A stretch of DNA of 39,844 nt from the NCBI GenBank assembly GCA_025924315.1, contig JAICIO010000049.1:1-39844 (forward strand), in the 5' to 3' direction. The translations under genes were made by a program, and so were the position numbers. The notes under the pieces were generated by a model. That model had not been told where the DNA came from, searched no databases, and saw only the letters and a list, made by a program, of their open reading frames with translations. Below are positions 28,658-34,435 of the stretch, piece by piece; position 1 is the first letter of the stretch, and each line of letters opens with the position of its first letter. Source of the DNA: Phycisphaerae bacterium (GTDB lineage: Bacteria; Planctomycetota; Phycisphaerae; Tepidisphaerales; Tepidisphaeraceae).

Positions 28658-28813
28658 ATGTCCGAAGCCCAACGTCGCGCCGCGAAGAAGAACATCAAGA
28701 AAGCCGCCGCCGCGGCAAAACGAAAGCGAACCATCGCCAACTTGCCAAAGAAAACCCGCACCGCCCTGGGCAAACAAGGCGCCAAGGTCGCGCGTCAGAA
28801 GCGGTCGAAATAA
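28658..28813 (+). CDS. Small, very basic Lys/Ala/Arg-rich protein (51 aa)
   Basis: From the ATG at 28658 the protein is about 45% Lys plus Arg with Ala spacing (for example AAKKNIKKAAAAAKRKRT), plus TRTALGKQGAKVARQKR at the end. It has no membrane segment. The composition is histone-H1-like and fits a nucleic-acid-binding role; I recall similar short proteins in other soil bacteria without known function. AAGGA 7 nt upstream supports the start; an in-frame upstream start would run through the repeat. Confidence 0.7.
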   Translation: MSEAQRRAAKKNIKKAAAAAKRKRTIANLPKKTRTALGKQGAKVARQKRSK

Positions 28814-28822
28814 ACTCGTCGA

Positions 28823-29117
28823 GGAATTGGCTTCGTTTCGGATTTCGCCCGCATTGGGTCAACAGCGGTCAATAGGCGGTAAACAGCGGGCAAACCATGG
28901 GCCCGCGCGGCGCGGCGTGTTGGGTTCGTTTTGTACTGCAGCCTTCGAGGTCAACAAACGTCAACTTTCATCAACTTTTGACAACCTGCGTCAATCACCG
29001 TGCGCTGACCGCGCCCCCCGAAAACCGATCCCTCCCTTCTCGGAGCGACGTCGCTCACGACGACTCTCTCATACCATGCGACCAGACCGATTTCCGCGGA
29101 AATCCGCGGGTTTTTGC
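28823..29117. repeat. Composite repeat, copy 1: GTCAAC array plus CCGCGG palindrome
   Basis: GTCAAC, GTCAAT, GTAAAC and related hexamers recur from 28857 to 28995, including TCAACTTTTGACAAC and GCGTCAA. About 100 bp on, at 29093-29111, lies the palindrome TTTCCGCGGAAATCCGCGG. Both parts and their order recur at 34154-34435. The opening GGCTTCGTTT is also shared. The 240-bp gap after the small basic gene holds this and nothing else. The palindrome lies inside the coding region of the next minus-strand gene. Confidence 0.6.
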
Positions 29118-30257
29118 GGTTTTTCGACGACCTCCGAGCAGAAGGACGATCGGAGCCATCAGCATCATCGATGACGGCTCCGGCACGAAATGGAAATTGT
29201 CCAGGACGACCGACGACGGGTTGTAGGTGACGTCGAACACGCCTCCGCCGGCGGGGACGGTTGATGGTGCGTTCGTGAAGACACCTGCGACAGTGAGGCT
29301 CGTCAGGATCGTGAAAACGTCGCTGGAGCTGGGCGTGAAGCTGTTGATCAAATTCACGTGAAGCGAGCCGCTGAGCGCCGCGGAGCCGCTGATCGCAAGC
29401 CGATCATATTGTGTGCCCGCGCTCGTTCCGCCGATGTCGATCTGCAGATCGGCGCTTGGCTGCTGGACATAGGCTCCGTCGAACGCGAGCATCCCCGCGC
29501 CCGAAACGCCCGGCGCAACCACCCCGCTGTTTGTCACGCCGCCAAGCGTGAGCCCGCTCATGTCAACCGTGCCAACGCCTGCGATCGTGCCCGTCGAGCT
29601 ATTGGTAAAGCTTAGTCCCGTGAGCGTCAGCGTTGCGGTGTTCGAGGTCGTGGTCAGCGTGCCGTTGTTGACGTGACCATTTGCCGCGCCGGTGCTGAAT
29701 GTGATCGATCGGCCGACGTTGACCGCCTCGTTGTATTGCCCCGTCGCGATCGCCACATTCACCGGCGAAATCTTCGACGAGAGATCGACTGCCTGCTGAA
29801 TGCTCGCGGAGTTCGTCTGGACGTTCACCGCCGTGATGCTTCCGGAGTTGAGATAGTGCGCGGCATTGAACATCACCGAACCGGTCGTGATCTTGGCGCT
29901 GAGGTTGACTGTCGCAACGTTCGGCAGACCGATGAACGACGCCGTGCTCATGTTCAAGCTGTTGTTGATGTCGACGGTGGGCGCCTGTAGACCCAAACTG
30001 CCAAACGCCGGTCCAAATGTACCGGTACTGAGATCCACCGGATCGACCACCGCAATGCTGTTCGTTGCGACCACGCTCACGTTGGTGAACGCGAGCGTCG
30101 CGGCAATGTTCTGCGCGTTGAGGTACGAGCCATCCGGTGACGCGGGCCCATTGCCGATTTGCACATCCGTCAGCGCGCATGCGCTGGTCGATCGCAGGAC
30201 CAAAAGCAACACGAGCGCCGTCATCGCGATGAAGCGCGTGAACGCAGAGCGATTCAT
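29055..30257 (-). CDS. PEP-CTERM surface protein, beta-helix-like, with tail encoded by a repeat
   Basis: From the ATG at 30257 (GGGAG upstream) the protein has 400 residues. A signal peptide (about 1-30) precedes a long beta-rich passenger with Thr/Ser/Asn-rich strands (TGTIAGVGTVDMSGLTLGGVTNSG), similar to the repeat regions of autotransporter-like and PEP-CTERM proteins (an autotransporter-associated repeat followed by DRLAISGSAALSGSLHVNLI). The sorting tag starts at PEP (about 359-361), then MMLMAPIVLLLGGRRK. After the usual basic end there are 17 extra residues (TRGFPRKSVWSHGMRESS) coded by the CCGCGG palindrome and its flank. The role is probably in the cell envelope or matrix. Confidence 0.8.
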   Translation of the reverse strand: MNRSAFTRFIAMTALVLLLVLRSTSACALTDVQIGNGPASPDGSYLNAQNIAATLAFTNVSVVATNSIAVVDPVDLSTGTFGPAFGSLGLQAPTVDINNSLNMSTASFIGLPNVATVNLSAKITTGSVMFNAAHYLNSGSITAVNVQTNSASIQQAVDLSSKISPVNVAIATGQYNEAVNVGRSITFSTGAANGHVNNGTLTTTSNTATLTLTGLSFTNSSTGTIAGVGTVDMSGLTLGGVTNSGVVAPGVSGAGMLAFDGAYVQQPSADLQIDIGGTSAGTQYDRLAISGSAALSGSLHVNLINSFTPSSSDVFTILTSLTVAGVFTNAPSTVPAGGGVFDVTYNPSSVVLDNFHFVPEPSSMMLMAPIVLLLGGRRKTAKTRGFPRKSVWSHGMRESS

Positions 30258-30516
30258 ACGAACTCCCGTTATTGGACCACCCGTCGTGACGAAGAGGTGA
30301 TGAGCTCGCCGCGCGAAAGCCCGCGCGATCGGCAAACTCAGCGGGCAACTATCTTCCAAGGCTTACACGGGGCGGTCAAAGAAAAAGTTATCGGAGCGAA
30401 CATCCATTAAATCGCCATCTTCCGAGGCGCGCCCCGGAGTGAACCGAGGCAAACTTTTCCGCCGGCGCCCGGCAAGATCAGTTAAGTCGGTCCGAAAACG
30501 GTTCGATGCCCAATGC

Positions 30517-30759
30517 ATGAGCACCAAAAACGAACTGATCGAAGTGATCGATGCCTCGCGCGCCAAGGGACTCGGCGTGAAGTCGATCCGCAAACAGAAG
30601 TACGATCCCTGCAACTTCTACATGACGCTCACGGACGGCAAACAGGTCGGGCCGGTGAAGTGCGAAGGCAACAACGACGAGCTCAACCGAAAGTTCGGCG
30701 AAGCTCAGTCGTACCTTGCGGGGATGAAGTCAGCGCCCAGGCATCACGCGGTCGCCTGA
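30517..30759 (+). CDS. Small conserved-looking soluble protein (80 aa)
   Basis: I do not recognise the family. It has an N-terminal helix (KNELIEVIDASRAKGLG), a strand region (KYDPCNFYMTLTDGKQVGPVKCEGNNDELN) and a C-terminal helix. There is no signal peptide or membrane segment. The ATG at 30517 is preferred over the in-frame 30439, since the upstream 26 residues are basic and look non-coding. A strong terminator follows 29 nt after the stop. It is divergent from the PEP-CTERM gene; the 259-bp gap (30258-30516) shows no clear motif. Confidence 0.6.
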   Translation: MSTKNELIEVIDASRAKGLGVKSIRKQKYDPCNFYMTLTDGKQVGPVKCEGNNDELNRKFGEAQSYLAGMKSAPRHHAVA

Positions 30760-30787
30760 TCGATCGCACGATCACGCACAGCATTTG

Positions 30788-30830
30788 AAAGCGGGACGGG
30801 TCCAGTCGTATTTGGACCCGTCCCGCTTTT
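30788..30830 (+). terminator. Strong intrinsic terminator, 17-bp perfect stem
   Basis: AAAGCGGGACGGGTCCA (30788-30804) pairs exactly with 30813-30829 around an 8-nt loop, followed by T. Because the stem begins with A and ends with T runs, it can work in both directions, between the 80-aa gene and the convergent lipoprotein gene. Its 3' end CGTCCCGCTTTTG is repeated directly at about 30838-30850. Confidence 0.85.
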
Positions 30831-30877
30831 GTCATTCGTCCCGCTTTTGGCATTCACATCGCGTCCCCTATTCGCGC

Positions 30878-31132
30878 TCAATCCTTGTTGTGGTCTTTGT
30901 AGACCTTTCCGCCGACGTTGCCGGCGCCGGCGCCGATCGCGCCGCCCACAATCGCACCCTCGGCCGGGTGATCCTTATCCACTCCCGCACCAATGGCGGC
31001 GCCCGTGGCCCCGCCGGCGATCGTCCCCGTCGTTCGCGGATTCTCTTTCATCGTTTCACAGCCACAACAAATGGCCGCGACAACCAACGCACCGGTCGCG
31101 GCTCGTGCGAATCTTCCATAGGCGACATGCAT
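30878..31132 (-). CDS. Glycine-zipper lipoprotein
   Basis: From the ATG at 31132 (GGAGG upstream) the protein has 84 residues. The signal peptide ends in a lipobox near CCGCETMKENP. The mature part has Gly/Ala zippers (TIAGGATGAAIGAGVDKDHPAEGAIVGGAIGAGAGNVGGKVY), as in outer-membrane YMGG-like or SlyB/Pal-related small lipoproteins. These insert next to or across membranes. The function is not known. Confidence 0.8.
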   Translation of the reverse strand: MHVAYGRFARAATGALVVAAICCGCETMKENPRTTGTIAGGATGAAIGAGVDKDHPAEGAIVGGAIGAGAGNVGGKVYKDHNKD

Positions 31133-31322
31133 GAGACCTCCAGATGTTGGAAAAACCAGCCTAAAACACGCGAATCGCGTGCCACCTGTAGCAAGATCTG
31201 TGCAATTTGCGCTGTGTCGCTGGCGCGGGAACAAAGCGCGAGGATGTTGCCTCTGGCGTTAGTTTCACAAGCGATAGCGGCTAAGCTCTCCTCGATCTGC
31301 GGACATTCAAAAAGCGGGCGTC

Positions 31323-31517
31323 ATGGTTGGGAAGATCCTCGTCTGCGGACTGCTGGGTTACTACATTCTCGACGCCATTTTCACAGGAACTTTGCTGACG
31401 ATCACGCGCGGACGCGGATACCGCCGCATTCCCCGCAGTGAAGCGCCGGTGTTCTACTACGTCGCGCTGGCCTTTTACGTCGCCCTCATCATCATCACCT
31501 TGCGATGGTGGCCATGA
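31323..31517 (+). CDS. Small two-segment membrane protein (64 aa)
   Basis: The protein has hydrophobic segments at about 3-27 and 43-62, with a basic loop between them (TRGRGYRRIPRSE). I do not recognise it. The ATG at 31323 follows a 190-bp gap after the divergent lipoprotein start; no clear ribosome site is seen. The next 166 bp (31518-31683), up to the convergent membrane protein, hold nothing I can support. Confidence 0.55.
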   Translation: MVGKILVCGLLGYYILDAIFTGTLLTITRGRGYRRIPRSEAPVFYYVALAFYVALIIITLRWWP

Positions 31518-31683
31518 AGTCCGGCAGTGTGGTTTCAGAACTTTTTCCGCAACAGGGCTCAACGATTTCCTCTCCCGCGAAATGCGCGAAGAGCGCGCCA
31601 CCGAAGCCGCCGAACAGCACATCGACCGCACCGCCGCGGGGGCGTGAGGCAGCGGGACGTTTCAATACCAATCTCCAGCCACA

Positions 31684-32166
31684 TTAGGTCTGCTCCACGA
31701 GCTCGGTTATTTTTGAAGATTCACTGTGGCGCGATCCCAGCCAATGCCAAAGGCTGAGCGCCGCGAGGAGAAGGAAGCTGAGACTCCACAAATAAAAGCC
31801 GGGGCCCAGGCCGGTCACGAGATACTGAGTGACTCCACCTTCGTCGCCCGAGATCGTGGTTCCGACCACACGCCACGTCTGCTGGGCGATGAGCAAAGCC
31901 GCGAGCGACACGACCAGCGACACGCTGTAAAGGCGGGCGAGAAAAAAGAGAAGCGCGAGCCCCGCCAGCGGATTGGCCATCCACGCGAATTGCCGGTCGA
32001 ACATCGCGAAGATCCCATCGAAGAACGCGCCCAGTCCGCCGATTGACGTGGGCTGGCCGCTGGTGTTCGCCTTTCCGACGAGATTGAGCGTCGTCAGAAA
32101 AAACGACGCGAGATAGCACCCGACGACAACCACGCACGATACGATGCGAGAGAGCCGAGAGTTCAT
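31684..32166 (-). CDS. Hypothetical membrane protein, four segments (160 aa)
   Basis: Hydrophobic segments lie at about 8-30, 63-80, 82-97 and 122-146, with a Gly/Ser-rich loop (GKANTSGQPTSIGGLG) after the first. I do not recognise the family. The ATG is at 32166 and no strong ribosome site is seen. The gap to the next upstream gene is 124 bp, with nothing marked. Confidence 0.6.
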   Translation of the reverse strand: MNSRLSRIVSCVVVVGCYLASFFLTTLNLVGKANTSGQPTSIGGLGAFFDGIFAMFDRQFAWMANPLAGLALLFFLARLYSVSLVVSLAALLIAQQTWRVVGTTISGDEGGVTQYLVTGLGPGFYLWSLSFLLLAALSLWHWLGSRHSESSKITELVEQT

Positions 32167-32290
32167 GTGATCGCCCGGCGGGCGTAGGACACATCAATTG
32201 CCGCAACCGCGCGCACATGTATAGTAACTACTAGTTTATGATTGGCAAGAGCCAGCCTGGCAACCAACCGACGCCCCGTTCTCTCCACCT

Positions 32291-32596
32291 CTACCCAATC
32301 ACCGACAGAATCTCGCGGTGCCCGGATTCCGTCAGCGGAATGATCTTCGCGTAGGCCGCTTTCCACGCCGCGTTGTCACGCGCCGCGACGAGCGCCTTCT
32401 CGAAATCGGCCAGCGAGTTGTAGGTCGTTTCGAAAATCAACGTGTAGTACGGCGCGCCGACCAGATCCGTCAGCATCCGCATCGCAACGCCCCCGTAACC
32501 CGACTCGCGGATTATCGTGACGGCCTCTTTCCAATGGGCGATTGCGTCCTTCGATTGGCCAAATTTGAGACGGAAAATATCGCGTACGACGATCAT
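32291..32596 (-). CDS. Dimeric alpha-beta barrel protein, NIPSNAP/ABM-like
   Basis: The 101-residue protein follows the strand-helix order of dimeric alpha-beta barrels: MIVVRDIFRLKFGQSKDAIAHWKEAVTIIRE, then YYTLIFETTYNSLADFEKALVAARDNAAWKAAYAKIIPLTESGHREIL. The centre (SLADFEKAL...NAAWKAAYAKI) recalls the NIPSNAP group. The function is unknown. GGAGG lies 6 nt before the ATG at 32596. Confidence 0.7.
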   Translation of the reverse strand: MIVVRDIFRLKFGQSKDAIAHWKEAVTIIRESGYGGVAMRMLTDLVGAPYYTLIFETTYNSLADFEKALVAARDNAAWKAAYAKIIPLTESGHREILSVIG

Positions 32597-32751
32597 GGGT
32601 GCCTCCAAAATGACGACATCGCGACTGCTGAACCACGGGTATCATGGCGTTTCACATCCCGACATTCAAAAGTTTGTGGCGATCGGGTCATTCGATTGAT
32701 ATGTTGTTATCCGACACGTCGTTTGAGTGAGGGCCTGGAACGGAGACGAAA

Positions 32752-33897
32752 ATGCGAGCAATTCCGCGTTTGGGCGCTGTTGTTGTCTCGTTACTCGTTT
32801 TAGCTCACGCACAAGCAGACGGCATCACTATGGCGCCGCTGTCAACCTTCGGCGGGGGCGATGGCTGGCTCGCGCCGGGCGAAGGCGGATATGCATACCT
32901 CGGCACGGCCAACAACGAGCGCGGGCTCGCTTTCGGCAACGGACATCTCTATCTCGTCAGCCGCGCCAACGTCTCAGGCAATGCGAACAACATCCGCATT
33001 CTGGATGCTTTGACGGGAAGTGACCTCGGCGGACTGAACAACAGCCTCATCACCGGCGGGACGTTTCCGGTCAACGCCGCGGGCGTCGGCAGCGACGGCT
33101 CGATCTATGTCGCCAACCTCACGACTCAATCCACCACCACCGCTTTCAAGATCTACCGCTGGGCCACCGAAGCAGCGGTGCCGACCGTCGCTTACAGCGG
33201 CGACGCGGGCCTTCCCGGTGCGCGCGTGGGCGACGACCTCGCCGTGTATGGCGGATCAGGGACCAAAATCGCCGCGGGCTTTGGCAGCTCTCCGTCCATC
33301 GCGGGCAACAACAGCTATTCGATCATCGATCCCACAGCGAGCAGCGCGACCGCGATCGCTTTCACGAGCACTCCGCCCAATGCCGGCGACTTCCGACTTG
33401 GCCTCACCTTCTTCGACCAGACTCACGTCGCCGGCGCGCAGGGATCGTCCCTCTACCGTTACACCAGCTACAGCGGATCGAGCGGCACACTCATCGCCAG
33501 CCCCGCAATTCCCGACCCTTCCGGCGCCACCGCCGATCGCTTGCTCGCGTATGTGCAAATCAGCGGCGTGTCGCTCCTCGCCGTGCAGAGCATCGGCGAT
33601 TCGCACGTCAGCATCTACGATGTCAGCGATCCTTCGACGCCGCTCTTCCTCGCGACCGGCAACACAACCACCGGCACGCTCGTCGCCAACGGCAACGGCA
33701 CCGGGGCCGTCGCATGGGACATCACCGGCCCGACCACGGCCAACCTCTACGCGATGAGCACCAACCAAGGCATCCAGGCATTCACCGTCACCGTCCCCGA
33801 ACCGGCGAGCATCGCTCTGCTCGCCCTAGGCCTCAGCGTAGGTTTGTCGCGCCGAACGAGACGGCGCCCGATACCGGCACAAGCGCGTCGCGGTTGA
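32752..33897 (+). CDS. PEP-CTERM surface protein, beta-propeller-like (DUF4623-like)
   Basis: The 381-residue protein has a signal peptide (about 1-22, ending AHAQA). The body has blades of the type seen in DUF4623/quinoprotein-like PEP-CTERM proteins (RGLAFGNGHLYLVSR, IRILDALTGSDLGGL, GSDGSIYVANLTT, FKIYRW). The sorting tag starts at PEP (about 349-351), followed by SIALLALGLSVGL and a basic tail (SRRTRRR). It is probably exported and then processed by an exosortase. GGAGA 6 nt before the ATG supports the start. Confidence 0.82.
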   Translation: MRAIPRLGAVVVSLLVLAHAQADGITMAPLSTFGGGDGWLAPGEGGYAYLGTANNERGLAFGNGHLYLVSRANVSGNANNIRILDALTGSDLGGLNNSLITGGTFPVNAAGVGSDGSIYVANLTTQSTTTAFKIYRWATEAAVPTVAYSGDAGLPGARVGDDLAVYGGSGTKIAAGFGSSPSIAGNNSYSIIDPTASSATAIAFTSTPPNAGDFRLGLTFFDQTHVAGAQGSSLYRYTSYSGSSGTLIASPAIPDPSGATADRLLAYVQISGVSLLAVQSIGDSHVSIYDVSDPSTPLFLATGNTTTGTLVANGNGTGAVAWDITGPTTANLYAMSTNQGIQAFTVTVPEPASIALLALGLSVGLSRRTRRRPIPAQARRG

Positions 33898-33925
33898 CAC
33901 CATGTAACTGGTCATTGGAACTGGG

Positions 33926-34010
33926 CCATTGGGATTTCTCTCTCGGTGGGTTCGTTCTGAAATCCCAATCGTTGCGCGAACATTTCCGAACGTTTTGGAA
34001 CATTTTGGAA
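33926..34010. repeat. GAAC-rich repeat block after the PEP-CTERM gene
   Basis: The block holds a stem GGGATTTC/GAAATCCC (about 33929-33967) and then four close copies of GAAC (GAACATTTCC, GAACGTTTTG, GAACATTTTG, GAACGC) at about 33978-34013. It is the first part of a 540-bp gene-free stretch (33898-34439) made almost wholly of repeats. Confidence 0.5.
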
Positions 34011-34020
34011 CGCATGGACA

Positions 34021-34141
34021 CCTTCACGGCCGTCCCAGAGCGAAGCGACGGGCGGCATCGCGCCGCGCGAGCGACCCCCAAAAATGCCGCCCGGACTTCG
34101 ACGGGCTCAGTCGAGCTCGCTAAAGCTCTGGGCGGCCGTGA
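34021..34141. repeat. Inverted repeat with the dispersed 40-nt element, copy 2
   Basis: TCACGGCCGTCCCAGAGC (34024-34041) pairs, with one mismatch, with GCTCTGGGCGGCCGTGA at about 34125-34141. The left 39 nt (34021-34059) match 24657-24696 with one gap and one substitution. The element lies in the gene-free stretch between the PEP-CTERM and GNAT genes. Confidence 0.6.
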
Positions 34142-34153
34142 GCGCGGATCCAC

Positions 34154-34435
34154 GGTGGCTTCGTTTTGAATTTTCCCTCCTTTTGGTAAACAACGGTCAA
34201 CCGCCGTCAACTTTTGACAACAAGCGTCAACGGTCGACGCGCCAAAAAAGCGTCGAACCGGACTTCCCGGCCCCCGCATGTTTAGCCGCGAGCTTGCTCG
34301 CGGAGGCTGCGTTCCATCCACGAAATACTCGCGAGCAAGCTCGCGGCTAAACGTGCGCGATAAACGACCGTCTCGCGCCCACGATCACCATAGCATTCCG
34401 CCTCGCATCTTTCCGCGGAAATCCGCGGAATTTCA
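34154..34435. repeat. Composite repeat, copy 2: GTCAAC array plus CCGCGG palindrome
   Basis: GGCTTCGTTTTG opens the block, GTAAAC/GTCAAC hexamers follow at 34186-34233 (with GTCAACTTTTGACAAC), and TTTCCGCGGAAATCCGCGG lies at about 34411-34429. Order and motifs match copy 1 at 28823-29117. A different palindrome (34281-34351) is nested between the two parts. Confidence 0.6.
34281..34351. repeat. Perfect inverted repeat, TTTAGCCGCGAGCTTGCTCGCG family
   Basis: Two 22-nt arms (34281-34302 and 34330-34351) are exact complements around a 27-nt loop. The family is shared with 4578-4634. It sits inside the composite repeat, as if inserted there. Confidence 0.8.

Follow-up and report, generated by a model that had tools for sequence, protein, structure and literature searches.

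Dispersed intergenic repeats of bacteria are usually palindromes. PHO boxes, the operators of OmpR/PhoB-type regulators, consist of direct repeats at intervals of roughly one helical turn, near 11 bp, and lie upstream of regulated genes, while iterons and centromere-like arrays consist of short phased direct repeats. REP, BIME and REPIN elements are short intergenic repeats with tens of copies, which form mosaic clusters and act as hot spots for insertion sequences (PMC3116915, PMC3733652), and dispersed intergenic repeats are already known as targets of certain insertion sequences (PMC1525189).

Here we describe a repeat family found in a 39,844-nt stretch of DNA (the window), contig C49 of a 6.57-Mb assembly with 262 contigs. 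Compared with REP, BIME and REPIN elements, the family is likewise short, intergenic, multi-copy, mosaic and hit by an insertion sequence, but its unit consists of direct repeats of one polarity. We rejected assignment to REP/REPIN, which has a palindromic unit of 20–40 bp with a GTAG or CGTC tag, because the consensus here is a direct repeat in which that tag was not seen; the nested hairpin is palindromic and REP-like but belongs to a separate family. Read on the minus strand, the arrays (GTTGACC/GTTTACC) resemble the GTTCACC of PHO boxes and also repeat about once per turn. However, their pitch is 10 rather than 11, they occupy about 60 loci with mixed orientation of flanking genes, and they are not tied to neighbouring promoters, so we do not favour a PHO-box-like operator. 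Short phased direct repeats are shared with iterons and centromere-like arrays, but the units here are dispersed over the chromosome, and a non-systematic inspection did not connect them with genes for replication or partition. A CRISPR array, with repeats of about 21–48 bp and unique spacers of similar length, does not fit a 10-bp pitch and 4-nt spacers, in agreement with an earlier note on this DNA. We found no description of the repeat family in the open-access papers searched.

Structure of the repeat unit

Each unit is composed of a head, TGGSTTCGTTTYG, followed by three to five copies of a direct repeat with a pitch of exactly 10 bp, the repeat sequence being either GGTMAAYNNC or (N)GAACRTTTC. 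The window contains four heads, all on the plus strand (Table 1).

Table 1. Features of the repeat units in the window
Feature	Positions	Strand
Head 1 (TGGCTTCGTTTCG)	28828..28840	+
Array 1, GGTMAAYNNC type, partly degenerate	28857..28895	+
Head 2 (TGGGTTCGTTTTG)	28921..28933	+
Array 2, TTTTGACAAC type; hexamers at 28950/28960/28970/28980/28990	28949..28995	+
Promoter-like pair: CGGAAA (29096-29091), N17, TATGAG (29073-29068)	29068..29096	-
Tail palindrome TTTCCGCGGAAATCCGCGG, copy 1	29091..29109	+
Head 3 (TGGGTTCGTTCTG)	33947..33959	+
Array 3, NGAACRTTTY type; GAAC at 33978/33988/33998/34008, exact 10-bp pitch	33977..34013	+
Head 4 (TGGCTTCGTTTTG)	34156..34168	+
Array 4; hexamers at 34186/34196/34206/34216/34226	34185..34231	+
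REP-like inverted pair (TTTAGCCGCGAGCTTGCTCGCGG), nested in copy 2	34275..34357	.
Promoter-like pair: CGGAAA (34415-34410), N17, TATGGT (34392-34387)	34387..34415	-
Tail palindrome TTTCCGCGGAAATCCGCGG, copy 2	34410..34428	+

The earlier note had described two copies of a composite repeat sharing a head, clustered hexamers and a CCGCGG palindrome in the same order, and these parts (heads 1 and 4, phased hexamers and both occurrences of TTTCCGCGGAAATCCGCGG) are present where it placed them. The count of two did not hold, since heads 2 and 3 had been overlooked and the family extends genome-wide. Likewise, what it called a GTCAAC array is borne out by the phasing of the hexamers but not by their number, with 19 GTCAAC found in the window and 19.4 expected. 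The palindrome that it saw nested in copy 2 exists but belongs to a repeat family separate from the head and array units, a REP-like hairpin with 71 half-elements genome-wide against 0 in the control and frequent facing pairs. In the window, the non-random parts are the hexamer phasing, the shared core, the head and the 19-mer TTTCCGCGGAAATCCGCGG, for which 0.05 occurrences were expected by chance; TCAACTTTTGACAAC accompanies the phased hexamers, at 28971 and 34207.

Two open reading frames adjoin the first block. One (28658-28813, 51 aa) is lysine-rich, lies immediately upstream of head 1 and has no Pfam match. The other (29055-30257, minus strand) appears PEP-CTERM-like by eye, without a Pfam match; its final codons include the copy 1 promoter-like pair and cross the tail palindrome, as though the element had lengthened the frame.

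Spacing and sequence type were analysed in 212 kb of merged stretches with 95 head matches, obtained with a slightly different head pattern. In 47 out of 56 units the first hexamer began 28–30 nt after the start of the head, and successive hexamers were 10 nt apart in 112 out of 169 intervals, the remainder being mostly 8, 12 or 20 nt. The autocorrelation at lags 10, 20 and 30 was extreme (580 at lag 10, compared with 64 expected). Hexamers keep to GTMAAY (GTCAAC 116, GTAAAC 42, GTCAAT 35, GTAAAT 10), and the 4-nt spacers are variable, with GGCG most frequent. Sorted by sequence, 20 units carried TTTTGACAAC, 34 were other GTMAAY units, 24 were GAAC units and 17 were unassigned. Using provisional wedge parameters, predicted curvature exceeded that of shuffles for GTMAAY-type arrays (48.5 versus 30.4 and 51.1 versus 27.5), but GAAC-type arrays showed no predicted curvature (29.3 versus 26.0).

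Genome-wide distribution and gene context

Searches of the genome for further copies, which the earlier note had proposed, recovered 97 heads, compared with 0 in a reversed-pattern control. The core sequence (20 versus 0), the head plus hexamer (71 versus 2) and the three-unit array (55 versus 1) gave similar contrasts, so further copies exist and the hexamer is not randomly spread. The heads fall into at least 59 clusters, nearly all intergenic. Based on gene calls from a purpose-written hexamer-score script, 39 of 59 clusters are flanked on both sides by called genes, 13 are at the edge of the examined DNA, and seven overlap a called ORF, although some of these ORF calls are doubtful. All heads within a cluster share a single strand in each of the 34 clusters with two or more heads. 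The clusters are mosaics with inverted repeats. The composite repeat of the earlier note combines head/array modules with REP-like hairpins and, in some copies, with a tail that resembles a promoter. In genome G000, contigs C66, C85, C135, C151 and C172 carry a multi-copy, partly repetitive region with head and GGAAC units, which are possibly inside coding sequence.

Flanking gene orientations were mixed (<< 13, >< 9, >> 9, <> 8), and for this reason we rejected a terminator or promoter of neighbouring genes. The earlier note had also considered a non-autonomous mobile element, for which it suggested looking for fixed length, target-site duplication or fixed orientation relative to genes. Dispersal irrespective of gene orientation agrees with that idea, but composite length ranges from 161 to 475 bp, and a 10-bp match between flanks was seen in only one of 11 copies, the rest being near background. 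Head and tail are not complementary by eye, and no terminal inverted repeat was seen. These observations do not fit a MITE or similar simple non-autonomous transposon, which would have terminal inverted repeats, a target-site duplication and a roughly constant length, although the uncertain element ends weaken the flank test.

An insertion sequence in the hexamer arrays

The head/array unit itself is not an insertion sequence, as the earlier note had held. A separate insertion sequence, the sole mobile element that could be demonstrated, lands in the hexamers. Its end, CAAAAGTGCAGAAGTCGA, occurs eight times, always close to a contig end (L212-L219). All eight ends (four left and four right) adjoin a hexamer, and hexamer arrays are the sole landing site that we detected. 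When the adjoining 6-mers were compared, contigs C230 and C127 matched each other only (GTCAAT), as did C40 and C45, while C6 and C161 each fit C11 or C42 (GTCAAC). All eight ends would therefore be explained by four insertions, each with a 6-bp duplication that is the hexamer itself. The matches are consistent with the hexamer being the target duplication, with ends paired by sequence rather than by spanning reads. When the flanks from C127 and C230 are joined, the repeats of the array fall back into phase. The assembly contains the two ends of the insertion sequence but not its body, and the end peptides, including the left-end peptide MLALPTAAEPLVDRVRATFTRPSFE, have no Pfam family match. 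Compared with the REP-targeting insertion sequences of PMC1525189, this one shows similarly high specificity for a dispersed intergenic repeat, but it targets a hexamer within an array of phased direct repeats, and its putative 6-bp duplication would match that hexamer.

Distribution among other genomes

Among the genomes searched, arrays were found in the window species alone, while the head is widespread in Phycisphaerae. The triple-array pattern was absent from all 100 relatives and had one match, a short perfect tandem in G255, in 391 other genomes of the phylum, a sample that overlaps the relatives; the same array was not found in the GTDB collection of public genomes apart from its own. 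A viral match to the core was dismissed as a lone 17-mer without an array. In contrast to the arrays, the head with a leading T occurs 11–52 times each in six relatives (G003, G004, G010, G020, G095 and G508). A 22-base version matched 87 stretches of public genomes, mostly Planctomycetota, with a few matches in records labelled Zixiibacteriota, Campylobacter or Finniella.

Copies of the head are themselves repeated every 10–11 bp in some relatives. G020, from the same family as the window species, has a lag-10 signal (136 versus 31) that is confined to the downstream side of the head, with repeat units visible by eye (e.g., CGGACATTTC). Other lags dominate in G508, G095 and others, and several other genomes show little or no lag-10 signal next to their heads, so present evidence does not support a general 10-bp pitch. 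In G508, paired heads lie 91–92 bp apart with an open frame, MQNEPNFRKSQM... (L192-L198, L238-L243).

Possible function and origin

We tentatively favour, at somewhat less than even odds, a reading in which the family consists of scattered arrays of sites, in phase with the helix, that bind a protein or bend the DNA and that an insertion sequence has come to exploit. The head would be a conserved anchor at a fixed distance from three to five direct repeats, and since these recur exactly once per helical turn, a protein that binds or bends DNA would meet identical hexamers on a single face of the helix. The exact helical pitch, the fixed anchor distance and the conservation of hexamers between variable spacers suggest an array that acts at the DNA level and faces a protein, much as the earlier note had proposed in naming a protein-binding array. 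The single strand kept within each multi-head cluster, the lag-10 signal in G020 and the eight insertion ends in hexamers also favour it. Predicted curvature supports this for GTMAAY types only. Protein binding, the protein and the role are what we infer; the role would probably be architectural, because the elements are intergenic in every gene orientation, and the insertion sequence would have evolved to land in the same hexamers. Several observations count against phased protein-binding sites. No binding protein was found, the repeats vary in sequence from array to array and from species to species, a poor fit to sequence-specific binding, GAAC-type arrays lack predicted curvature, and the lag-10 signal is faint or missing by the heads of several other genomes. 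Additionally, the random gene context also fits neutral or selfish spread. The family is a polar, helically phased direct-repeat module with an anchor common to a class and a repeat sequence that turns over, and it offers a concrete, testable way into the question of how intergenic DNA is organised in Planctomycetota.

The mixed orientation of flanking genes speaks against regulation of those genes and suits either an architectural role or selfish spread. The latter, a REPIN-like non-autonomous population moved by a transposase or recombinase and decaying between genes while its arrays grow by slippage, we consider a serious though unlikely alternative. Ninety-seven dispersed heads in mixed gene context, array sequence that is species-specific, the mosaic with REP-like hairpins and the copy 1 tail in the final codons of a neighbouring ORF, as though inserted, all favour it. 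However, terminal repeats and a general target duplication were not seen, composite length is variable, no candidate mobilising gene was found, and fixed head-array spacing with a strict 10-bp pitch would not be expected under decay.

A further alternative is a transcribed unit, in which a promoter in the tail would drive a short non-coding RNA, transcribed on the minus strand through the array and the head (RNA-sense sequence CAAAACGAACCCA). A CCGCGG-type tail palindrome follows a subset of units, including about half of the TTTTGACAAC-type units, and read on the minus strand it forms half of a promoter-like pair. This CGGAAA-N17-TAnnAT-like pair occurs on the minus strand in 12 of 21 TTTTGACAAC-type units and in none on the plus strand, compared with a mean of 0.14 and maximum of 2 in shuffles, a flattering figure because the pattern was defined post hoc. 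We therefore treat it as a lead rather than a test. Upstream of the heads of G020, 17 of 20 loci have a TTGCA...TGCAA element whose spacing is that of a promoter, and eight have an exact copy of CTCTTTGACAA, which resembles the rRNA boxA antiterminator (L203, L134, L224, L225, L228, L229, L233 and L235). Together, these elements make transcription from tail to head plausible in two genera, as far as sequence motifs can indicate. However, the promoter-like motif was not found in most other units, six array stretches folded as single sequences were no more structured than shuffles (z −1.85 to +1.0), and Rfam gave nothing relevant for the window stretch and 15 related loci. Overall, we regard a transcribed unit as improbable.

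A broader reading, which we hold to be more doubtful, joins these motifs to the spread of the head. It proposes an undescribed, Phycisphaerae-wide class of intergenic elements in which a 13-bp anchor organises one-turn repeats of species-variable sequence but fixed pitch, with its own promoter and, in some genera, boxA antitermination. If true, Planctomycetota would have a chromosomal element of a new kind.

Small protein genes, with the minus strand of the head encoding MQNEPT/KTNPI-like peptides, are very improbable: the G508 copies do retain one open frame with a similar peptide, but codon-position bias was not significant in G508 (p 0.74) or G020 (p 0.13), consistent with the non-coding character given in the earlier note, no Pfam or NCBIfam match exceeded the cut-off, the 10-bp arrays of the window species are unable to hold a frame, and the frame in which the head is read changes from genome to genome.
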